Of a stretch of 64,000 bases of DNA, positions 5,707 through 62,555 are shown one piece after another. The notes below the pieces were generated by a model, which did no database searches, was not told the origin of the DNA, and saw only the letters and a program-made list of their open reading frames with translations. The DNA is from Aestuariivivens insulae (GTDB lineage Bacteria; Bacteroidota; Bacteroidia; Flavobacteriales; Flavobacteriaceae). The stretch is from positions 248,001 to 312,000 of the forward strand of contig NZ_JAKMCS010000003.1 of NCBI RefSeq assembly GCF_022662195.1, read 5' to 3'. A program made the position numbers and the translations under genes. Numbering within the stretch: position 1 is the first letter of the stretch; the number at the start of each line of letters is the position of its first letter.

Positions 5707-8448
5707 ATGAAAAAGGCTTTCTCTAACTTTACTATAGTTTTTCTTTTAATACTGTTATTTTTTTCAAGCACCCTTTATACTCAAAACGGAAAAACAATAT
5801 GGACTAAAACCTCTCAAGAAAAAGCTTTTAATGGAAAACTTCCTAATAAAGATGTAAAACAGAATAGAGCTTCTTACTATCAATTAGACATTGAAAGCTT
5901 GAAAACCCTTTTGAAAGACGCCCCTCTAAGAAACAATAACACAACATCTGATATCATAATAAGTTTTCCTAACAGTGAAGGTACCTTAGAAGCATTTAGA
6001 ATTAATGAAGCACCATTATTTAAACCTGATTTTCAAAAAAAACATCCAGAATTAAGAACTTATGTTGGCACCAGCGTAACTAATAATGGGAATAAAATAA
6101 GATTCAGCATTACCCCTTTTGGATTACACGCTATGACATTGTCATCAGAAAAAGGCCTTCAACTAATAGATCCCGCTGGCCTCGACAACAAATATTATAT
6201 ATCTTATAATAAAAGTGACTTAGTTAATTTACCCCCCCCTTTTTACTGCAAGTATATTGATGATTTAGGACATTTTAAAAATACTTCATCCTCAAAATCA
6301 AACTCGACAAGAAATGCAAATGATGGTATTTTACGAACATATGACTTGGCACTAGCTTCAACAGTTGAGTATTCTACATATCATATTGATGCAGCCGGTG
6401 TATCGGGAGGAACAGATACCGAAAAGAAAAATGCGGTAAAAGCAGCTATGATGGTTACCATGAATCGGGTAAATGGGATATTTGAACGCGAAATATCCCT
6501 CACCATGCAAATGGTAGACAATACCAATATCATCTTTATAGCAGAACCCGACGGGTATACCAATGATAATGGGCAAACTATGCTAAGCGAAAACCAAACC
6601 ATTATAGATAACGCAATAGGCTCTGTGAATTATGACATAGGCCATGTGTTTAGTACAGGAGGCGGAGGTATAGCCAGCCTCAATTCACCATGTGTGTCAG
6701 GAAGCAAAGCTAAAGGTGTTACTGGGTTATCTGCTCCTGTTGGCGATGTGTTTGATGTCGAATTTGTTGCCCATGAAATGGGGCATCAATTTGGAGCTCC
6801 GCATACCTGGTCAAGCAATAGTGGCGGATGTTCCGCAACAGAATGGTCCTCTACAAATGCCTATGAACCCGGAAGTGGCAGTACTATTATGTCTTATGCT
6901 GGTTTATGTGCTCCAGATAACGTACAGCTTAATGGCGACGATTATTTCCACCAAAAAAGTCTTCAAATGATTTGGGCTAACATAAGCAGTGGCAATAGCA
7001 GTAATTGTGACACAGAAGCCTCATCGGGGAATACAGCTCCAACAGCTAACGCAGGAATAGATTATACTATACCAGTATCAACACCTTATAAACTTACAGG
7101 ATCTTCAACAGATATTGACGGTACAGGCACACATACCTATACATGGGAACAATTTGACTTAGCAACATCTCAAGGTAGTATTTCAGAAAATAATACTACA
7201 GGCCCTCTCGTAAGGTCTTTTGAACCAACTTCAGATCCAGTAAGATATATTCCTAATCTTAAAGACCTTAGATTTTCTAATGGTTCTACAACTTGGGAAA
7301 AATTAGCGTCTGTACCCAGAAGTTTAAATTTCCAATTAACGGTAAGGGATAATGGAAAAGACAACAACTACGGACAGACCGACAATGACGAAATGACCAT
7401 AACAGTTATTGATGCCAATGGCCCTTTCAAAGTCACTTCACAAAATGCTTACATCAGCTATCCTGTGGGCAGCACCCAAACCATAACTTGGAATGTAGCC
7501 GACACTAATTTAAGCCCTATCAATACATCTATGGTTAACATAAGACTATCTATTGATGGCGGATTAACATATCCTACAATATTAACTACAACTAATAATG
7601 ATGGTAATGCTGACATCACTTTTCCTTCAGGCGTTGCAGCTCCATATTGCAGAATTATGATTGAAGCAGATCCTTCCCAGAACATATTTTTTTCTATTAA
7701 CGAAGAAAATTTTTCTATTGGATACACCATAACTGAAACTTGTAATCAATACAGCGGCGGAACAAATCTACCTATTTCTATTCCCGACAATGGCAACAGT
7801 TTTGAGACCAGTACCATTAGTGTAAGCGAATCTTCAACTATAACCGATTTGAATGTAGGAGTCAATATTACACATACCTATAAAGGAGACTTACAAATAG
7901 CTTTAGTAAGCCCCGAATCGACCCAAATAAACTTAACCACTCAATCATTTTGTTCTACAGGAAGCCTAATGGTTAAATTTGACGATTCCTCAACCCAAAT
8001 TGATTGTGCCTACACAGAAAACAATGAAGTTTATAAACCAACAGGCGATGCCTTAAATAACTTTAATGGAGAAAACCCTTCTGGAAATTGGACCTTGGGC
8101 ATTATTGATTTAGCAGATGGAGACACAGGAACATTAAATTCTTGGTACATAGAGCTTTGCACTACAAGCTTAACATTAGATAATCCAGCATTTAACAACA
8201 TATCCAGTCTAAAAATATTTCCTAACCCAAACAAAGGCGAGTTTACTATCACTCTTAAAGGTTCCCTATCTAATCTAATTAAGGTGGAAGTTTTTGATAT
8301 TAGAGGTCGACAAATTTACAATAATAGCTACAAGGGTTCAGGTGATTTTAACGAAACCATAAGCCTTAAAAATGCGCAAACGGGGATATATATTTTAAAT
8401 GTGAATGATGGCAATCGGCAATCTACCAAAAAAATTGTTATAGATTAA
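5707..8448 (+). CDS. Secreted reprolysin-like zinc metalloprotease, paralogue of the 2255-5047 gene
   Basis: 913 residues. Same layout as the gene at 2255: signal peptide (about 1-25), pro-region with matching blocks (GTLEAFRINEAP, TYVGTSV), catalytic domain with HEMGHQFGAPH at 356-366 and Met-turn STIMSYAG, PKD/Ig-like region, P-like domain ending LNSWYIELC, and a T9SS type A sorting domain beginning LKIFPNPNKGEF near residue 836. The two proteins align along their whole length, so they come from a gene duplication, though they are clearly diverged. The stop lies 10 bp from the convergent pth stop. Function is inferred from motifs; substrate unknown. Confidence 0.9.
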   Translation: MKKAFSNFTIVFLLILLFFSSTLYTQNGKTIWTKTSQEKAFNGKLPNKDVKQNRASYYQLDIESLKTLLKDAPLRNNNTTSDIIISFPNSEGTLEAFRINEAPLFKPDFQKKHPELRTYVGTSVTNNGNKIRFSITPFGLHAMTLSSEKGLQLIDPAGLDNKYYISYNKSDLVNLPPPFYCKYIDDLGHFKNTSSSKSNSTRNANDGILRTYDLALASTVEYSTYHIDAAGVSGGTDTEKKNAVKAAMMVTMNRVNGIFEREISLTMQMVDNTNIIFIAEPDGYTNDNGQTMLSENQTIIDNAIGSVNYDIGHVFSTGGGGIASLNSPCVSGSKAKGVTGLSAPVGDVFDVEFVAHEMGHQFGAPHTWSSNSGGCSATEWSSTNAYEPGSGSTIMSYAGLCAPDNVQLNGDDYFHQKSLQMIWANISSGNSSNCDTEASSGNTAPTANAGIDYTIPVSTPYKLTGSSTDIDGTGTHTYTWEQFDLATSQGSISENNTTGPLVRSFEPTSDPVRYIPNLKDLRFSNGSTTWEKLASVPRSLNFQLTVRDNGKDNNYGQTDNDEMTITVIDANGPFKVTSQNAYISYPVGSTQTITWNVADTNLSPINTSMVNIRLSIDGGLTYPTILTTTNNDGNADITFPSGVAAPYCRIMIEADPSQNIFFSINEENFSIGYTITETCNQYSGGTNLPISIPDNGNSFETSTISVSESSTITDLNVGVNITHTYKGDLQIALVSPESTQINLTTQSFCSTGSLMVKFDDSSTQIDCAYTENNEVYKPTGDALNNFNGENPSGNWTLGIIDLADGDTGTLNSWYIELCTTSLTLDNPAFNNISSLKIFPNPNKGEFTITLKGSLSNLIKVEVFDIRGRQIYNNSYKGSGDFNETISLKNAQTGIYILNVNDGNRQSTKKIVID

Positions 8449-53421: not shown

Positions 53422-55194
53422 TTATCGTGCCTGTTTATCTATTAATGCTATTGTTTTTGCTGCTTTATTGTAATCATCTTGCATGGTAACCGTTGTGATT
53501 GGTGTATATCTTGCCAACTCACAATTTTCTAATATGCTATTGAAATCATTAATAACTTCAGCGTCTACACCTTTATCGTTTAATAAATCTTTAATTCTAT
53601 CTTTACTAAACTCACTTGTTTCTATATGTAATTTTGCCTTAAGATAATTATGCAAGGCTTTTTCCAAGGCAATGTAAAAGGCCTCCTTTTTTCCAAGCTC
53701 TTTCTTGGCTTTACTTAAATATTTTCTGGCTAACCTATCTGCTTTTCTTATTTTATTACCATACACATCGGCAGCTCTTTTAGCTTTCTCTTTTCTAACT
53801 AACATTGCCAGCGGTATTAACAAAAATGGCAGTGTTACCAAAGACCAAAATAAATTGGTCTTAAAGAAATGAGATGACTTAATTGCAGTAAAATTCGTTT
53901 TGGTTTTAATGAACTTAAACTGATCGTTATTTAGAACCACACGTTGTTTAACACTTCCTGAAACTGTATCATTGTTAGCATCACCCGAATTTACCGGACC
54001 ATCTTGGACATCGATAACAATTTCGTTGGACGATACGCGTTTGTAACTTTTGGTTTTTAAATCGAAATAAGAGAACGAAATGCTTGGTATAGGATATTTC
54101 CCTTTGTATTGAGGCACAACAGTATAATTATCTGAAATACTGCCTTGCATGCCATCCAAATTGGTCCTTACATTTTCTGTATGCTCTGGTTCGTAAACTT
54201 CTAAAGAGCTGGGCAGTGAAATCTTTGGCAAATTAAAAAGCTTTAGGTTTCCTTTACCACTAACATTAACTTTAACTTGTAAAGACTCGGTAGCATCCAA
54301 TTGGGTTTTAGATGCCGTTACTTTAAATGAAAAATCACCAACTGCACCCGTAAAATCGACTGGTTTTCCTGCTTCTGGCAATGGTTTAACGTTAATAGCC
54401 CTATTGCTACTCGTCGCAGTTGTACTTAAACGCTGCATGATGCGACTACCAAATATATCGCGCCTATTGGTTGGCACAGCTGCAACAATATTTAAACTTA
54501 ATGGTTCTATATTTAGTTTCCCTGTTTTTTGAGGGTACAACACCACTTTCTTATAAACAACATAATTGTAGTCTTCACCATTGTAGGCGCCATTTTCTAG
54601 CTTTAACTCCTTTAACTTAATTTCTTGATTCCAGAAGTCGTTAAACTTAGGAATATCCAGCACATCTATATCGTATAGATTGATACTTGGTGACACGTAA
54701 AGCTTATAAACTACTGTTATAGCCTCATTTAAATATGGATTGGTATTAGATACTTCGGTAACCAAATGGATATTTTCTGAGGCAATATAACTAGGGTCAT
54801 TAGGGTCTTTTGGTTTTTCTACTGCAGCAGTAACCGTAATTTTTATGGGAATGGTTTTATAGGTTTCTCCATCAATAGTTATTGATGCCTGGCCTATTTT
54901 AAAATCACCTCGTTTTTTTGGCGCCAAGACATAACTGTATGTCTTTTTAAAGGTTTTTTTGCCATTAATCCAAGAATTGCTAACCGATTGACCTGGGCCA
55001 CCAACAACATTAAACCCAGAAAAACTAGGTGGATTGAAATTGTCGCCATCTTGGTTCATCTCAAAATCTACCCGTAACCGCTCATTTACTCCAAGTGTTT
55101 TTTTACTAACCTTAGCTTCAAATTTCACTTGTGAAAAAGCAAAAGGTGTTACTAATAGAAATATTAAAATTGATATGTTTTTGAAACTATACAT
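53422..55194 (-). CDS. batD: BatD-like membrane protein (oxygen tolerance family)
   Basis: 590 residues. Signal peptide (1-21), a large extracytoplasmic region of repeated Ig-like beta domains (about 22-430; FEAKVSKKTLGVNERLRVDFEMN, NTNPYLNEAITVVYKLYVS, KTQLDATESLQVKVNVSG), one transmembrane helix (about 447-465), and a cytoplasmic helical tail. Matches the BatD family in length and order. Its start codon touches the left end of the heptad-repeat element that carries the four-helix-bundle gene, so its normal leader has been replaced. Confidence 0.92.
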   Translation of the reverse strand: MYSFKNISILIFLLVTPFAFSQVKFEAKVSKKTLGVNERLRVDFEMNQDGDNFNPPSFSGFNVVGGPGQSVSNSWINGKKTFKKTYSYVLAPKKRGDFKIGQASITIDGETYKTIPIKITVTAAVEKPKDPNDPSYIASENIHLVTEVSNTNPYLNEAITVVYKLYVSPSINLYDIDVLDIPKFNDFWNQEIKLKELKLENGAYNGEDYNYVVYKKVVLYPQKTGKLNIEPLSLNIVAAVPTNRRDIFGSRIMQRLSTTATSSNRAINVKPLPEAGKPVDFTGAVGDFSFKVTASKTQLDATESLQVKVNVSGKGNLKLFNLPKISLPSSLEVYEPEHTENVRTNLDGMQGSISDNYTVVPQYKGKYPIPSISFSYFDLKTKSYKRVSSNEIVIDVQDGPVNSGDANNDTVSGSVKQRVVLNNDQFKFIKTKTNFTAIKSSHFFKTNLFWSLVTLPFLLIPLAMLVRKEKAKRAADVYGNKIRKADRLARKYLSKAKKELGKKEAFYIALEKALHNYLKAKLHIETSEFSKDRIKDLLNDKGVDAEVINDFNSILENCELARYTPITTVTMQDDYNKAAKTIALIDKQAR

Positions 55195-55222
55195 AATAAT
55201 TAACGAACAACGATTAACGATT
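55195..55222. repeat. Left heptad tract, unit AACGATT
   Basis: Units AATAATT, AACGAAC, AACGATT, AACGATT follow each other without a break, starting at the base next to the batD ATG and running over the stop codon of the four-helix-bundle gene. Confidence 0.65.
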
Positions 55223-55591
55223 TTTGAGGTTTGAATTATTGTTCTTGGATGTTTTTATACTGGCTACAAAAATTGAAATTAATTGATTGTTTTCGTCTAT
55301 AACCTTATTTATTTGCTCTTCATTTCCAAAATAAAGATTGGCTTTTTTAATTATTCTCAAGCAATTATATGATTCCCTTAACTCTTTTAAACAAATTCCC
55401 ATTTTATGAACAAAATCTTTATGGGATTCAGCACTTCTAGCCTCTCCATAGTTTAATGCCGGAGACCCTGAAGATCGTATAATTTGGTTTCCATAATAGC
55501 TACCTGCATAACTGTTTTTTATATACTCAGTAATATCTATTATATCAACTGCAAAATCAATTATTCTATCTTCTAGATCGCTAGTTTTCAT
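55214..55591 (-). CDS. Four-helix-bundle protein of the 23S rRNA IVS (S23/IVP) family
   Basis: 125 residues, all-helical. DRIIDFAVDIIDITEYIKNSYAGSYYGNQIIRSSGSPALNYGEARSAESHKDFVHKMGICLKELRESYNCLRIIKKANL matches in order the family first seen in intervening sequences of 23S rRNA and related to Avd of diversity-generating retroelements: QIIRSSGS-NY-EA and the KE-RE-WL-like helix. No DGR reverse transcriptase or variable repeat is nearby. Function unknown; homologues are thought to bind nucleic acid as pentamers. The gene is an interloper between batC and batD and is flanked by inverted heptad tracts. Confidence 0.88.
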   Translation of the reverse strand: MKTSDLEDRIIDFAVDIIDITEYIKNSYAGSYYGNQIIRSSGSPALNYGEARSAESHKDFVHKMGICLKELRESYNCLRIIKKANLYFGNEEQINKVIDENNQLISIFVASIKTSKNNNSNLKNR

Positions 55592-55623
55592 TCGTTCATT
55601 ATAAATTAGGACATAAATTCTTA

Positions 55624-55651
55624 AATCGTCAATTGTTAATCCGAAATCAAA
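55624..55651. repeat. Right heptad tract, unit close to AATCGTT
   Basis: Units AATCGTC, AATTGTT, AATCCGA, AATCAAA run up to the batC stop codon, inverted relative to the left tract. Confidence 0.55.
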
Positions 55652-55654
55652 AAT

Positions 55655-56521
55655 TTACCAATCCTTTTCAGTCTTTACTTTTACGCCTTTTTGCTTTTCG
55701 GCATTAATTTTATCCTGCACTTTTTGCTCTTGGTTGTTCATGGCTTCCAACAAACTTTTTACTTGCTGTGGTGATAACTGACCTGGTTGTGGCTTAGGTT
55801 GCTGTGGTTTCTTTTGGTCTTTTTCCCCTTCCTTGCCTTTATCTTCTTTTTCATCTTTAGGCTCACCATCTTTATCTTTTTGGTCTTCGCCTTCTTTTTT
55901 ATCGTCTTCGCCTTGATCTTGGTTTTTTTGATCTTCCTGATTATCGCCTTCCTGATCTTTTTTATCTTGTTGGTCTTGCTTGTCTTTTTGATCCTGCTGA
56001 TCTTTATTCTCGTCGTTTTTATCCTTGTTCTCGTCGTCCTTGTTTTGATCCTGCTGATCTTTTTGTTGTTCGGCACAGGCTTTTGCCAAACCAAGGTTGT
56101 AACGGGTTTCGTCGTCTGAAGGATCGTTCCTTAATGCATTTTTAAAAGCCTCTACAGCTTCCTTACATTTTTTGTTTTGCATTAAAATATTACCTATGTT
56201 GTGATAGGCCATGTGTTTTTCCAACTTGGAAGTAGCATGTTTAATGGCTTGTTGATGACGGAATAAGGCTTCTTCGTAATTTCCCTTTTCATAATACGAG
56301 TTGCCTAGATTGTAATTTCCACCAACAGTTGAAGGTTGCTCCGAAATAGCCTTCCTATATGCCATTTCGGCTTCAACAAAATCTTCCTTGCTAGCAAGCT
56401 CGTTACCTTCAAAAATATAATTATTAGCCTTTTTAAAGGTCAACTCTTGGGTTTTGCTCTCCTCTTGGGCATTGCAAACCCCAACAATAAACATAAACGC
56501 AACAAAAACTATCCTCTTCAT
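55655..56521 (-). CDS. batC: BatC-like TPR protein with a charged linker
   Basis: 288 residues. Signal peptide (1-18), TPR repeats (about 25-150; GGNYNLGNSYYEKGNYEEALFRHQQAI, AYHNIGNILMQNKKCKEAVEAFKNAL, TRYNLGLAKACAEQQ), then a long low-complexity segment (about 155-240) made almost only of Asp, Gln, Lys, Glu and Asn, and a helical end. Such charged linkers are common in BatC proteins. Start 56521 gives a proper signal peptide; 56557 would add 12 residues. It probably scaffolds the periplasmic parts of BatA, BatB and BatD. Confidence 0.9.
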   Translation of the reverse strand: MKRIVFVAFMFIVGVCNAQEESKTQELTFKKANNYIFEGNELASKEDFVEAEMAYRKAISEQPSTVGGNYNLGNSYYEKGNYEEALFRHQQAIKHATSKLEKHMAYHNIGNILMQNKKCKEAVEAFKNALRNDPSDDETRYNLGLAKACAEQQKDQQDQNKDDENKDKNDENKDQQDQKDKQDQQDKKDQEGDNQEDQKNQDQGEDDKKEGEDQKDKDGEPKDEKEDKGKEGEKDQKKPQQPKPQPGQLSPQQVKSLLEAMNNQEQKVQDKINAEKQKGVKVKTEKDW

Positions 56522-57915: not shown

Positions 57916-58923
57916 TTAAACAAAACTTCTAAATATGCTAAAGCGTAACAAAAACTCAAAAAGCAACAAAGCTCCGGCCAATAACACTAATGGCCTGTAC
58001 TTTTCTTCGTAATTATAAAACTTGAATTCTTCTATATCTGTTTTTTCAAGTTTATTGATTTCTTTATAAATATCTTCTAGTTTTTTGTTATTGGTCGCCC
58101 TAAAATATTTACCGCCTGTAACGTCGGCTATTTCTTTTAAAAGGGCTTCATCTATTTCCACTTGAATACGACGATACTGAAAATCACCTGTTCTTGGGTC
58201 TATTGCCACTGGCGACAGGGCCATTCCATTGGTCCCTATTCCAATAGTATACGTTTTTATACCATATTCTACAGCTAGCTCACTGGCTATCTTGGGGTCT
58301 ATAAACCCAGAATTGTTAACACCATCTGTCAATAAAATGATAACCTTGCTTTTAGCCTTGCTATCCTTTAAGCGATTTACTGCCGTAGCCAAGCCCATAC
58401 CTATAGCGGTACCATCTTCAATAACATTATTGTATTTTATACTTCTTAAGGAACGAAGCACAATGGCTTTGTCACTAGTAATTGGTGTTTTGGTATAACT
58501 CTCTCCAGCATATTCCACCAACCCAATTCTATCGTTTGGTCTACCTTTAATAAAATTGGCCGCCACGTCTTTTAAGGCTTCCAATCTATTAGGGGACAAG
58601 TCTTTGGCCAGCATGCTTCCAGACACGTCAATGGCCATAACAATATCTATCCCCCGTGTTGTTTTTGTTTTGGTTGACACATCAACGGTTTGTGGTCTTG
58701 CCAAAGCCGTTATTAACAAGGCTATTGCCAAGAGCCTCAAAATAAAGAGTCCATGCCTTAATTTAGGCAACCATGATGTGGTTGTCTTAAACCCTTGCAA
58801 GCTGGATATCTTAAGTTCGGAGGTTTGTTTATTGCGCTTTGCCACATACCATAATATGGCCAAGGGCAGTACTAATAATACCCAAAAAAACTCTTTATTT
58901 ACAAACTCAATACCTTCTAACAT
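57916..58923 (-). CDS. batA: BatA-like VWA-domain membrane protein
   Basis: 335 residues. Transmembrane helices near 10-28, 56-76 and at the C-terminal end (about 308-328) around a von Willebrand A domain with MIDAS DVSGS (99-103), TPITSDKAI and LLTDGVNN. Aerotolerance-type operon member. Its ATG overlaps the stop of the preceding orf by 1 base (TAATG), so translation is coupled. Confidence 0.93.
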   Translation of the reverse strand: MLEGIEFVNKEFFWVLLVLPLAILWYVAKRNKQTSELKISSLQGFKTTTSWLPKLRHGLFILRLLAIALLITALARPQTVDVSTKTKTTRGIDIVMAIDVSGSMLAKDLSPNRLEALKDVAANFIKGRPNDRIGLVEYAGESYTKTPITSDKAIVLRSLRSIKYNNVIEDGTAIGMGLATAVNRLKDSKAKSKVIILLTDGVNNSGFIDPKIASELAVEYGIKTYTIGIGTNGMALSPVAIDPRTGDFQYRRIQVEIDEALLKEIADVTGGKYFRATNNKKLEDIYKEINKLEKTDIEEFKFYNYEEKYRPLVLLAGALLLFEFLLRFSIFRSFV

Positions 58924-60560
58924 TATTCTTCGTCTGGTTTTAATTCTATTGAATTTAAAATACGTTCTATCATTTGGTCGGCATACACGTCGTTTACGGG
59001 ATAGGTTATTACAATTTGTTGAAGCACATTTTCTGATGTGAAATGCAACATAACATAATTGGCTTCAACAAAATTACCTGTTTTAAGCACATCAAATTTT
59101 AAAGAACCATACGTTTTAATGCCTTCTGCACCATTAGGTGTTGTAAACTTATCGTTTAGTTTTACAATATCCTTGGCACCTTGTGACTCCATCCCTTTCA
59201 AACTACCTTCAATAGCCTTTTCTATATCGATACCGCCTTCTGGCGCTTGCCCCAATGTAGTTGTATTGACAGCTATACTAAATTCGTCCAATAAAGTACC
59301 ATACACAAACGACGACATACTCACTGAGGCCTTGTAATTGTCTGGAATAGGCAATTCTATCCGTTTTAAGACCTTTGGTGTTGTAATAGTTACCGGAGGC
59401 ACGCCATATTGACTGGTTACCCATTCGCCTTCTAACAACTCTTTACTGTCGTGGCCAATAATGGTATCTTTTACATAGTTAAATCCATACTTAAGTGAGA
59501 ATCCAACCAACGTCATGATAAGCAATAACACCCCAACGACTACAGTTATAATTATTTTGCGGCGTTTTTTCTTGCTGGCTAATTCCTCTCTATATTTTTC
59601 ATCTAGGAGTTTTTCTTCTTCTGTTGGCTCGGGCAATACTTCTTTTACGTGGTCTATTTCTGCATCGACTGTTTTTCTATCCAATTCGGCCAAGGCAATA
59701 TCTGGAGCCGATTTTGCAAATTTCACCAAATCGGCACGTTTTAATATGTTTTCAATATTCTTTATGGTCTCTTTGCTTAAATCGATTTGATTGCCTTCCT
59801 TCAACAATTGCAACCTACTTATCAATTCGTCTGTAGTACTCTCCAAAGAATGGTCATAAACCTTTTCATCCAAATATTTTCTAATGATAAGGGTTAATTC
59901 TGAATAATATTCCTTGAGTTCGGATTGCTCTAAATAATGACTCTCATCCAATTTTTTTAAAGCTAACTTTGCCCTATCATAAGGTGGCAATAAGGCTATT
60001 TTTTCAGCTTCGGTTAATGGCTTTTGGCGCCAAATAAACCAATACATTAAAAAAGCGATTGCTCCAATTATTAATAAGGTTAGCAGTACATATTTCCACC
60101 AATTGCTTCCTTTTTTCTTAACGGCTATAATGGGTTTAATATCATAAAGCCCTTGTTTGGTCGTGTCTATAACCACATTATTGACCTCAACCTTCAACGA
60201 ATCGGTAAAAAAAGTTTTATCGCCTACAAGTATTTTTTGTATTGGAATGGTATAAGCTCCAGAATCGAATTGGGTTAGGCCATACTTTTTTATAAGGTTG
60301 TATTTATCGTTGGTTTTGACGGTATCAATTTTGTAGGACTCAATCATTTCTAATGGCGAAAATGTTTGTCCTTCCGGAAAAACCACCAGACTTGTAGTAT
60401 CGGTTTCTACTTCAATCTTATAGGTGATTTGCTCTCCTATTTTTATTGAGGTGGAGTCTATAGTTGATTTGACTTGAGCGTTTGAGAACAAAGAACAAAG
60501 AACAAAGACTAAAAAAAAGACCGAACACGGAAGGCCGAAGACAGAAGATTTTGCTTTCAT
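58923..60560 (-). CDS. Bat-operon membrane protein of unknown function, signal peptide built from heptad repeats
   Basis: 545 residues from the ATG at 60560 (552 from 60581). Signal peptide (1-28, ending SNA), an extracytoplasmic beta domain (about 30-140) like a BatD module (SIKIGEQITYKIEVETDT), a transmembrane helix (about 156-177), a cytoplasmic helical region (LPPYDRAKLALKKLDESHY, YYSELTLIIRKYLDEKVYDHSLESTTDELISRL), a second transmembrane helix (about 338-358) and a C-terminal domain. Proteins of this type are regular members of flavobacterial bat operons, between the DUF58 gene and batA. The coding bases for the signal peptide are 7-bp repeats (60486-60548), and both possible start codons lie inside another heptad tract. 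Confidence 0.87.
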   Translation of the reverse strand: MKAKSSVFGLPCSVFFLVFVLCSLFSNAQVKSTIDSTSIKIGEQITYKIEVETDTTSLVVFPEGQTFSPLEMIESYKIDTVKTNDKYNLIKKYGLTQFDSGAYTIPIQKILVGDKTFFTDSLKVEVNNVVIDTTKQGLYDIKPIIAVKKKGSNWWKYVLLTLLIIGAIAFLMYWFIWRQKPLTEAEKIALLPPYDRAKLALKKLDESHYLEQSELKEYYSELTLIIRKYLDEKVYDHSLESTTDELISRLQLLKEGNQIDLSKETIKNIENILKRADLVKFAKSAPDIALAELDRKTVDAEIDHVKEVLPEPTEEEKLLDEKYREELASKKKRRKIIITVVVGVLLLIMTLVGFSLKYGFNYVKDTIIGHDSKELLEGEWVTSQYGVPPVTITTPKVLKRIELPIPDNYKASVSMSSFVYGTLLDEFSIAVNTTTLGQAPEGGIDIEKAIEGSLKGMESQGAKDIVKLNDKFTTPNGAEGIKTYGSLKFDVLKTGNFVEANYVMLHFTSENVLQQIVITYPVNDVYADQMIERILNSIELKPDEE

Positions 60561-60589
60561 AACTCGTAATTCGTAATTCATAAATCGTT
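60486..60589. repeat. Three adjoining heptad-repeat tracts
   Basis: On the + strand: GAACAAA three times and GACTAAA (60486-60513); then CCGAACA, CGGAAGG, CCGAAGA, CAGAAGA (60521-60548), in the same 7-bp register; then TTTCATA, ACTCGTA, ATTCGTA, ATTCATA, AATCGTT (60555-60589), shifted by one base. They cover the start and signal-peptide codons of the orf before batA and the gap to the DUF58 gene. Confidence 0.75.
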
Positions 60590-60597
60590 AACTCAGT

Positions 60598-61464
60598 TTA
60601 TCCTCTTTGTTTAAAATAGCCCAATAGTTTTTTCACGTAGCTTTCATCCACCCTACAGTCTATAGTCCCTGCGCCAGAACGAGAAAAGCTTTCCTTAAAA
60701 TAATTAACCTTATCCCTATGATACTTTTCGTAATGGCGTCTCACTCGTTTTGAAGCCGTATTGACCAACATAAGCTCTCCCGTTTCCTCATCTTCCATTT
60801 GTACCACTCCTAAATTCGGGATCGCTTCTTCATGTTTATCATACACCCGTATACCCGTTACGTCATGTTTTCCCGAAACGATTTTCATGGTATGCTCATA
60901 GTCATCTACCATGAAATCGGACATCACAAAAACAATGGCTTTTTTCTTCATCACATTGGTAAGGAACTTTAAGGCTTCGGTTAAGTTGGTTTTTTTACTT
61001 CCGGGCTCAAACTCTATAAGCTCCCGTATAATACGTAACACATGGGAGCGTCCTTTCTTTGGTGGAATGTATAATTCGATTTGGTCTGAAAATAGAATCA
61101 GCCCTATTTTATCATTATTCTGCGTTGCCGAAAAAGCCAAAGTTGCCGCTATTTCGGTAACTACTTCGTTTTTAAACTGCTCGACCGTACCAAATAGTTC
61201 GGAACCCGACACATCTACCATGAGCATCATGGTAAGTTCGCGTTCTTCCTCAAAAACTTTTACGAAGGGCTCATTATAACGTGCTGTAACATTCCAATCG
61301 ATATTCCTTACATCATCGCCAAATTGGTATTGCCTAACTTCACTAAAAGTCATACCACGCCCTTTGAAGGTAGAATGGTATTCGCCTCCAAAAATATGAT
61401 CGGACAAACGACGTGTCTTGATCTCTATTTTACGTACTTTCTTTAGTAATTCTTTAGTATCCAT
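60598..61464 (-). CDS. DUF58 domain protein of the MoxR/Bat operon
   Basis: 288 residues, no export signal, cytoplasmic. The DUF58 signature GMTFSEVRQYQFGDDVRNIDWNVTARYNEPFVK lies near 38-70, followed by a VWA-like core beginning MLMVDVSGSELFG. Always found with MoxR ATPases in such operons; thought to be a partner in MoxR-assisted assembly or metal insertion. Heptad tracts lie on both sides of the gene. Confidence 0.93.
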   Translation of the reverse strand: MDTKELLKKVRKIEIKTRRLSDHIFGGEYHSTFKGRGMTFSEVRQYQFGDDVRNIDWNVTARYNEPFVKVFEEERELTMMLMVDVSGSELFGTVEQFKNEVVTEIAATLAFSATQNNDKIGLILFSDQIELYIPPKKGRSHVLRIIRELIEFEPGSKKTNLTEALKFLTNVMKKKAIVFVMSDFMVDDYEHTMKIVSGKHDVTGIRVYDKHEEAIPNLGVVQMEDEETGELMLVNTASKRVRRHYEKYHRDKVNYFKESFSRSGAGTIDCRVDESYVKKLLGYFKQRG

Positions 61465-61469
61465 TTTTT

Positions 61470-61552
61470 CAGTATGCAGTGAGCAGTAAACAGTATTCAG
61501 TTGCAGAAATTATGATAACTGCCAACTGTAAACTGAATACCGAGTACTGATT
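61470..61552. repeat. Inverted pair of heptad tracts between the DUF58 gene and moxR
   Basis: CAGTATG, CAGTGAG, CAGTAAA, CAGTATT, CAGTTGC (61470-61504), 13 bp, then ACTGCCA, ACTGTAA, ACTGAAT, ACCGAGT, ACTGATT (61518-61552). CAGT and ACTG are reverse complements, so the two arms can pair; the longest perfect part is GTATTCAGTT (61493-61502) with AACTGAATAC (61531-61540). The right arm reaches into the moxR stop codon. Confidence 0.75.
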
Positions 61553-62555
61553 AAGGCACTTCTATTTCGTTTACTATTTTATTGATAATGTCTTCTGAAG
61601 TAACATTTTCGGCTTCTGCCTCATAAGTAATACCAATTCTGTGTCGTAACACATCATGTACCACAGCACGAACATCTTCAGGAATAACATAACCACGGCG
61701 TCTAATAAAAGCATAGCATTTGGCAGCGGTAGCCAGGTTGATACTTCCTCGAGGCGATGCCCCAAATGAAATTAAAGGTTTTAAATCGGCAAGTTTATAT
61801 TTCTCTGGGTATCGTGTTGCAAAAATAATGTCGAGAATGTATTTTTCAATCTTTTCATCCATATACACATCCCTAACGGCCTTTTGCGCATTTAAAATTT
61901 GCTCTAGGGAAACCACTGGGTTTACCTTATCCCAAGCGCCTTTTAAATTGGCCCGTACAATGAGTTGTTCTTCATCCAGTTTTGGGTAATCGATAACTGT
62001 TTTTAACATAAACCTGTCTACCTGTGCTTCTGGTAACGGATAGGTTCCTTCTTGCTCAACAGGGTTTTGCGTTGCCATAACCAAAAATGGTTTGTCCAAT
62101 ACAAAAGTATCGTCACCTATAGTCACCTGCTTTTCCTGCATGGCTTCCAATAATGCCGATTGCACTTTGGCCGGAGCCCTGTTAATCTCGTCTGCCAACA
62201 CAAAGTTGGCAAAAATAGGTCCTTTTTTTATGGAAAAATCGTTGGCCTTTATATTATAAATTAAAGTTCCGGTAACATCGGCAGGTAATAAATCTGGCGT
62301 AAACTGTATTCGGCTAAAACTACCATCTACCGCTTGCGCCAAGGTATTGATGGCTAAGGTCTTTGCCAAACCCGGCACGCCTTCCAATAAGATATGCCCT
62401 TGCCCCAAGAGACCAATAAGTAGGCGCTCTACCATGTGTTTTTGGCCTACTATAACCTTATTCATCTCCAGCGTAAGTAAATCAACAAAAGCACTTTCCT
62501 TTTCAATTTTCTCGTTAATTGTCTTAATATCAATTGTACCTGTATCTTCCATCAT
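61551..62555 (-). CDS. moxR: MoxR-type AAA+ ATPase
   Basis: 334 residues, cytoplasmic. Walker A GVPGLAKT (59-66), Walker B FVLADEINRAPAKVQSALLEAMQEKQV, sensor 1 MATQNPVEQEGTYPLPEAQVDRF, and a C-terminal lid with FGASPRGS. MoxR ATPases act as chaperones for VWA-domain partners, here BatA, BatB and the DUF58 protein. First gene of the operon; two adjacent ATGs (62555 and 62552) are possible. Confidence 0.96.
   Translation of the reverse strand: MMEDTGTIDIKTINEKIEKESAFVDLLTLEMNKVIVGQKHMVERLLIGLLGQGHILLEGVPGLAKTLAINTLAQAVDGSFSRIQFTPDLLPADVTGTLIYNIKANDFSIKKGPIFANFVLADEINRAPAKVQSALLEAMQEKQVTIGDDTFVLDKPFLVMATQNPVEQEGTYPLPEAQVDRFMLKTVIDYPKLDEEQLIVRANLKGAWDKVNPVVSLEQILNAQKAVRDVYMDEKIEKYILDIIFATRYPEKYKLADLKPLISFGASPRGSINLATAAKCYAFIRRRGYVIPEDVRAVVHDVLRHRIGITYEAEAENVTSEDIINKIVNEIEVP

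Follow-up and report, generated by a model that had tools for sequence, protein, structure and literature searches.

What occupies the space between batC and batD in Aestuariivivens insulae, where a small gene with 7-bp-periodic, inverted ends stands between two operon genes, and do gene and ends belong together? The DNA analyzed, here called the window, is a stretch of 64,000 nucleotides, and the coordinates of its relevant features are collected in Table 1. The original prediction held that the insert is exactly the gap from the batC stop to the batD start, and the ORF limits agree: the batD ORF starts at 55194 and the batC ORF ends at 55655, so that the whole element of Table 1 is the exact batC-batD gap.

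Table 1. Coordinates of the heptad-bearing features, numbered from the first letter of the window
Feature	Position	Strand	Basis and description
Whole element	55195..55654	minus	ORF limits; orthologues at the same site in G136, G064, and G022; absent from 3/3 congeners
Four-helix-bundle (4HB) gene P0001, TIGR02436/PF05635, 125 aa	55214..55591	minus	Profiles, fold model
Upstream (batC-side) arm	55621..55648	minus	Degenerate heptads GATTAAC AATTGAC GATTTAA, gene sense; counterparts at same-site orthologues L261-L263
Downstream (batD-side) arm	55195..55226	minus	ATCGTTA-type heptads; overlaps the 4HB stop codon
ORF-less CAGTNNN heptad hairpin, same operon	61465..61550	minus	Fills the gap between ORFs 60598-61464 and 61551-62555
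Heptad tracts, three different words	60485..60591		5' end of ORF 58923-60581, before and inside the N-terminus

The insert between batC and batD

The 4HB protein encoded by the insert scores 77.0 bits with TIGR02436 (curated cut-off, 24) and 46.3 bits with PF05635 (curated cut-off, 33.8). Its AlphaFold2 model has a pLDDT of 95.5, and the top PDB matches of the model in Foldseek are 2rld (E = 1.1e-5) and 2gsc, of the S23 family; as modeled, the protein has a four-helix fold like that of 2rld and 2gsc. An Rfam search finds no rRNA in the window, with one tRNA as the sole match above threshold.

The ends were originally described as 7-bp periodic and inverted, and the letters read as described, with the batD-side flank carrying AACGAAC AACGATT AACGATT (TRF row 55199-55222, period 7). 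When the window copy alone is compared with first-order Markov randomizations, the lag-7 tract of the batD-side arm has p = 0.007 and that of the batC-side arm has p = 0.135; the two arms match each other in inverted orientation only marginally (p = 0.078), although the signal is strong over the family as a whole, as described below. The MFE fold of the element pairs the downstream arm with the upstream arm, and the RNA fold of the whole element is no better than those of shuffled sequences (z = -0.81). For the arm duplex at the batC-batD site, p is 0.001 in G064, 0.014 in G136, 0.063 in G022, and 0.093 for the window copy. Taken alone, the window copy has marginal arms that are near chance; the heptad-ended 4HB insert is real, yet beyond proof from a single copy.

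BatD is found in all 80 of the sampled Flavobacteriaceae genomes, and orthologues of the window 4HB gene, with 78 to 83% identity, are intact at batC-batD in three other genera (G136, G064, and G022). A P0001 search of 33 batC-batD loci, a set outside which G136 lies, gives matches in five: the window's own, G064, G022, G016, and G075, the last two of which retain only C-terminal parts of P0001. Some further relatives have arm-like or other heptad-like remnants at the site, as judged by eye, and none of the three congeners has a 4HB gene there. Comparison of batC-batD junctions among relatives had been proposed as a means of revealing insertion through empty sites, and the gene is indeed absent from the congeners, but because copies are present in three other genera and truncated in two genomes, this absence may reflect loss rather than an original empty site. 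Given these same intact and truncated orthologues, a recent insertion is not the simplest reading of the locus; the window copy reads as an old insertion under loss, not a fresh one. Of the small mobile unit with heptad ends that was first envisaged, the unit and its ends are supported, and transposition is no more than a possibility. At two further batC-batD loci, L243 (in G032) and L251 (in G048), the gap is ∼500 nt and an extra BatD-like fragment replaces the 4HB gene, with 40% identity to BatD residues 136 to 271 and 30% identity to residues 141 to 260, respectively.

ORF-less forms also exist, as in the CAGTNNN hairpin of the same operon, which has an RNA fold of -25.0 kcal/mol (z = -3.95) and is flanked by ORFs that we take to be DUF58-type (60598-61464) and MoxR-type (61551-62555). 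The N-terminus of the protein encoded by ORF 58923-60581 (MNYELRVMKAKSSVFGLPCSVFF...) may be repeat derived, since heptad tracts with three different words are located there.

Heptad arms and their gene across genomes

Among the matches listed, PF05635 is found in 45 of 60 Flavobacteriaceae genomes, with up to 16 matches per genome; the genome containing the window has 14 matches, representing 13 genes, one of them broken. The loci analyzed are 83 4HB loci from 34 genomes (84 ORFs merged to 83, with one broken gene accounting for two ORFs), with 60 regions hand-picked from the upper part of the PF05635 match list, and the controls are the flanks of 239 ORFs from the same loci, all flanks being 120 nt long. 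Autocorrelation peaks at lags of 7, 14, 21, and 28 on both sides of the 4HB genes and is flat in the controls, with upstream and downstream lag-7 values of 0.38/0.38 in 4HB flanks and 0.30/0.30 in control flanks. Lag-7 tracts, defined by a score of 9 or more, are present in 31/83 upstream and 39/83 downstream 4HB flanks versus 12/239 and 10/239 control flanks; a detectable tract is missing from 78 of the 166 4HB flanks. The upstream flank matches its own downstream flank better in inverted than in direct orientation (means of 15.7 and 13.2; p = 2e-6) and matches it far better than that of another locus (15.7 versus 9.7 for the inverted match; p = 2e-14), the words differing between loci and no terminal sequence being common to all copies. 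The inverted match exceeds the direct one at 67/83 loci, and direct arrays occur too, since the direct match is the greater at 13/83. Periodicity over the loci of this family is far beyond chance. A test of PF05635 flanks for 7-bp autocorrelation and inverted orientation had been suggested at the outset; the flanks are far more 7-periodic than controls, and inverted, with enrichment in several phyla.

The originally proposed period of 7 holds for most periodic arms, but a minority have a period of 8, including the arms at a site in Flavobacterium (the Flavobacterium site), which rules out a strict period of 7. Among period-7 arms, a contiguous 4-nt conserved core with a 3-nt variable spacer is seen in 18 of 40 informative arms, where 8 are expected (p = 3e-4); this structure is not supported for period 8 (3/22 arms).

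A scan of named genomes covers the best 80 of 587 4HB loci, from many phyla, split by hand into Bacteroidota and others from the record titles (L156, entitled 'bacterium', is placed with Bacteroidota). Flanks are too short in 2 of the 80 and a called neighbor is missing on one side in 8. Bacteroidota loci have lag-7 tracts in 14/38 upstream and 12/38 downstream flanks and the other loci in 23/40 and 23/40, these counts leaving out the N runs upstream of L181 and L185 (otherwise 24/40 non-Bacteroidota upstream flanks). The inverted match with the own arm versus that of another locus is 18.5 versus 9.5 in Bacteroidota and 18.6 versus 8.9 outside it, and a crude motif scan finds no rRNA-embedded copies among the 80 loci. 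Plasmids also carry these genes, with a 4HB match in 45 records, of which 13 loci were read, 11 of them cyanobacterial (L273 was left out, its element being identical to that of L272). The inverted match is 15 or more at 9/13 plasmid loci and 8/11 cyanobacterial ones, each above all swapped partners; at L336 both sides bear long direct arrays, and L275, an antisense copy on a cyanobacterial plasmid, has no arms. A recent transposition between two Calothrix plasmids was considered and is ruled out, as the loci are near identical from ∼2.0 to 5.4 kb, well beyond the limits of the element.

In Flavobacteriaceae, 82 of the 83 4HB copies are co-directional with both neighbors, compared with 467/822 control genes (57%), and the same is true of 33/35 named loci in Bacteroidota and 27/37 in other groups. 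Bacteroidota copies are almost confined to co-directional gene pairs, and antisense copies, which lie between two genes running oppositely, are found outside Bacteroidota at 3/37 named loci and in two cyanobacterial plasmid copies. With median neighbor distances of 55 and 53 nt, the arms are close to stop and start codons. Host gene pairs include bat, cas, and nrd genes, identified by annotation or family search, in contexts that include cas6-4HB-cas4, cas10-4HB-cmr3, and nrdB-4HB-nrdA; further host genes are presumably thi, sdh, and acyl-CoA genes. Cyanobacterial plasmid CRISPR operons contain armed 4HB genes at L336 and L342 (both with the cas6-cas4 context) and at L340 (cas10-cmr3).

The two arms of a locus also fit each other as a duplex. 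At the 83 loci, the arm-arm duplex is -36.6 kcal/mol for own arms and -25.7 kcal/mol for swapped arms, with 73/83 beating the swapped value (p = 9e-12), whereas the flank duplexes of control genes do not differ (-26.3 versus -25.9 kcal/mol). When arms are compared at orthologous positions (14 sites, 49 loci), own arms fit best on average (p = 0.0095 for the duplex and 1e-4 for the ungapped match); restricted to the two largest Flavobacteriaceae sites, arm covariation is not significant (p = 0.12 and 0.16).

The Flavobacterium site is represented by 33 distinct junctions, once L203, a duplicate of L322, and L329, whose junction could not be located, are dropped. A 4HB ORF is present in 24 of the 33, and by eye 5 have a short ORF-less hairpin of another word, the rest having other or residual sequence. 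L328 and L333 have a different hairpin at this site, with the palindromic core CTCTCCAAAGGAGAGGG.

At the 24 4HB loci of the Flavobacterium site, own arms beat permuted ones (p = 1e-4). The arm-word class, assigned as A or B by short-motif counts in the left arm, changes 8 times on the flanking-gene tree and once on the 4HB tree, both being quick trees in which 5/21 and 7/21 inner branches, respectively, are weak. In the sister pair L312 and L313, the upstream genes are 99.6% identical in nucleotide sequence and the downstream genes 95.9%, and the stop-to-start block differs, with another word in both arms and 4HB genes that have diverged to pS of 0.60 and pN of 0.22; with flanks near identical and the inner block another one, the unit has been replaced as a block. 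Such block replacement between stop and start codons is seen in four sister pairs and may occur through insertion or through allele exchange. Presence and absence at orthologous sites are seen at both batC-batD and the Flavobacterium site, and a truly empty site is not found in any close pair. The arms and the gene make up one inherited unit, and the data support the view that the heptad ends belong to the 4HB gene and travel with it.

Word and protein are also related. Among Flavobacteriaceae pairs that share no homologous neighbor, the more similar the proteins, the more similar the words (r = 0.17, p = 5e-4), and of the pairs with protein similarity above 0.5 (n = 54), 30% share a word by a cosine threshold, a few of these being A/T-rich stretches, versus 2 to 4% of distant pairs. 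In the named set, with same-site pairs still included, r is 0.16 (p = 5e-4), and loci outside Bacteroidota give no significant relation (r = 0.047, p = 0.15). Two explanations, which are compatible, would be that units take their arms along to new sites and that the protein reads the word.

Noncoding heptad tracts away from 4HB genes number 16 in 0.88 Mb of 4HB-bearing sequence and 3 in 1.20 Mb from seven 4HB-free genomes (p = 2.6e-4), a link that is suggestive but not conclusive because the tracts occur in clusters and roughly half of the 4HB-bearing sequence comes from the surroundings of 4HB genes. Some loci hold gene fragments: repeated truncated 4HB 5' ends with heptad tracts lie beside the full gene in L019 (4320-5380; G000:C6), and repeated truncated 3' ends with heptad tracts lie beside that in L020 (13092-13240; G000:C33). 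L019 also has a heptad tract at 7503-7559, ∼2.5 kb from the nearest 4HB gene, and its words, ATTAACG and GAGCCAA, resemble those at two 4HB loci of the same genome.

Explanations of the arms and their placement

The window insert is, on balance and with real room for doubt, probably an old copy, in part decayed, of a stem-arm element that is widespread and functions like the intervening sequences (IVSs) of rRNA. Two arms of matched inverted tandem 7-bp repeats, or 8-bp repeats in some lineages, would enclose the 4HB gene, and the element would have come to fill exactly the space from the stop codon of one operon gene to the start codon of the following one, to be transcribed within the host message. 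Pairing of the arms would give a stem that is cut by host RNase III or that insulates the neighbors, and through such cutting or insulation an insertion between two operon genes would be tolerated. The rise of word similarity with protein similarity suggests that the 4HB protein may recognize the repeat word of its own arms, and copying might proceed through an RNA or single-strand intermediate with a polymerase supplied in trans, the intermediate being a guess prompted by the weak resemblance of the fold to Avd. By analogy with IVSs, whose anatomy the elements share, they would be carried in the host message and isolated or excised by the stem, which would account for their co-directional, close-fitting placement. 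Selection for RNA pairing by way of G.U wobbles is not supported, as G.U is not enriched in arm mismatches: sense G.U mismatches in own-arm alignments are fewer than A.C mismatches (157 versus 232; p = 1.7e-4), and the wobble bias at the Flavobacterium site is alike in swapped (351 versus 676) and own (25 versus 47) arms. The antisense copies outside Bacteroidota are not predicted by a sense-RNA model.

An active transposable unit is a rather unlikely explanation, although several observations fit it. A trans-acting enzyme, such as a host polymerase, reverse transcriptase, or recombinase, would excise or copy the arms and gene and insert them, and the heptads would be generated or extended in the process, accounting for the same word at both ends and different words at different loci. 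The many copies per genome and their presence in most of the genomes among the matches listed are as expected of such a unit, as are the similar words and proteins at unrelated sites, the truncated tandem copies of gene end and arm next to the L010 and L006 genes, and the gene-less heptad tracts mainly in 4HB-bearing genomes. Replacement of the stop-to-start block between near-identical flanks also fits, but homologous recombination between alleles yields the same outcome. No near-identical pair at different sites is present among 69 armed loci, where the top normalized protein similarity is 0.73, and in the suspected Calothrix plasmid case the duplicated stretch extends for several kb around the gene. 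Movement looks slow, since 14 sites are common to 2 to 12 loci, and neither a target duplication nor a transposase or other enzyme came to notice in the course of these comparisons.

It is improbable that the 4HB protein is instead a domesticated regulator, which would bind its own flanking heptad arrays, as DNA or RNA, and regulate itself or its operon within a unit that is not itself mobile. Tracking of the protein subfamily by the word, at unrelated sites too, the excess of arms with a 4-nt core and 3-nt spacer, and the long conservation of some sites across genera are consistent with this role, but the window copy is missing or residual in relatives that have batC and batD, ORF-less hairpins of another word occupy the same Flavobacterium site, and the host genes are of unrelated function, so that no common regulon is suggested. 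Very improbable indeed is neutral slippage, by which 7-bp repeats would grow anywhere in intergenic DNA and be associated with 4HB genes incidentally: chance or generic slippage is ruled out by the rarely periodic control flanks and by the few tracts in 4HB-free genomes, and within a locus the arms have matching words in inverted orientation, in an association that holds across phyla.

Relation to known systems

The S23 proteins of TIGR02436/PF05635 (2rld, 2gsc) are common and have solved structures, and the window protein belongs with them clearly in sequence and fold, and no protein-level difference was seen; what is new is the arms. A similar four-helix fold occurs in Avd of diversity-generating retroelements (4dwl, 8ubb; TM of 0.66 to 0.68 by query length; Foldseek E of 0.17 to 0.25), but Avd is like the window protein by fold only, and pectin methylesterase inhibitors are slightly higher in the Foldseek list.

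IVSs are known in ORF-less forms, and the long form has an S23p-type ORF between its arms, as does the window element, the host site of which is batC-batD rather than the inside of an rRNA gene. The 23S rRNA IVS of Coxiella burnetii measures 428 nt, ends in a 28-bp stem, is excised by RNase III, and has tandem GACAGAT heptamers directly upstream of the S23p ORF (PMC4990558). It is like the 4HB elements in having the same protein family between complementary arms, upstream tandem heptamers, sporadic distribution, ORF decay, and a size of ∼430 nt; RNase III cutting is demonstrated for the Coxiella IVS (PMC4990558) and is only proposed for the 4HB elements. IVSs lie inside rRNA genes at few fixed helices, whereas 4HB elements lie between protein genes, several per genome, each with a locus-specific word.

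MITE and REP elements are short intergenic hairpins, some of them ORF-less, that depend on a trans factor, but their copies share terminal sequences, whereas the words of 4HB elements differ between loci. In its defining features, the element is neither an rRNA IVS, its location being wrong, nor a classical IS or MITE, as it has no fixed ends. Tandem heptamers are familiar from cyanobacteria as STRR. Others are the TAACTGA repeats of Beggiatoaceae, with heptamers also in cyanobacteria and Bacteroidetes (PMC4679880), and GGGAATC of Xanthomonas and GGGGA(C/T)T of Nostoc, with 70 inverted heptamer pairs in Xanthomonas campestris and few in the Nostoc genome studied (PMC4692102). As described there, these families are like 4HB arms in being tandem 7-mers that are mostly intergenic, but they have one main word per genome, whereas 4HB arms have many. 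The terms S23 and four helix are absent from the main text of PMC4679880 and from PMC4692102, and titles and abstract starts among the matches listed, in open-licence literature exclusive of bioRxiv preprints, contain no link of 4HB/S23 genes outside rRNA to heptad repeats.

We tentatively suggest, as a possibility that falls short of a probable one, that these elements form an unrecognized class spanning phyla, in which a locus-specific 7- or 8-nt word, in tandem and inverted at the ends, would be read by a matching 4HB protein. IVSs would be the rRNA form of this class, which would also be the source of at least some of the heptamer repeats (STRR, TAACTGA, and GGGAATC) of cyanobacteria, Beggiatoaceae, xanthomonads, and Bacteroidota. 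Two long-standing questions, where heptamer repeats come from and how mobile rRNA IVSs are, are here tied together with the S23 proteins; if the suggestion is true, it could account for many small intergenic genes and for unusual 7-bp repeats whose annotations do not connect them.
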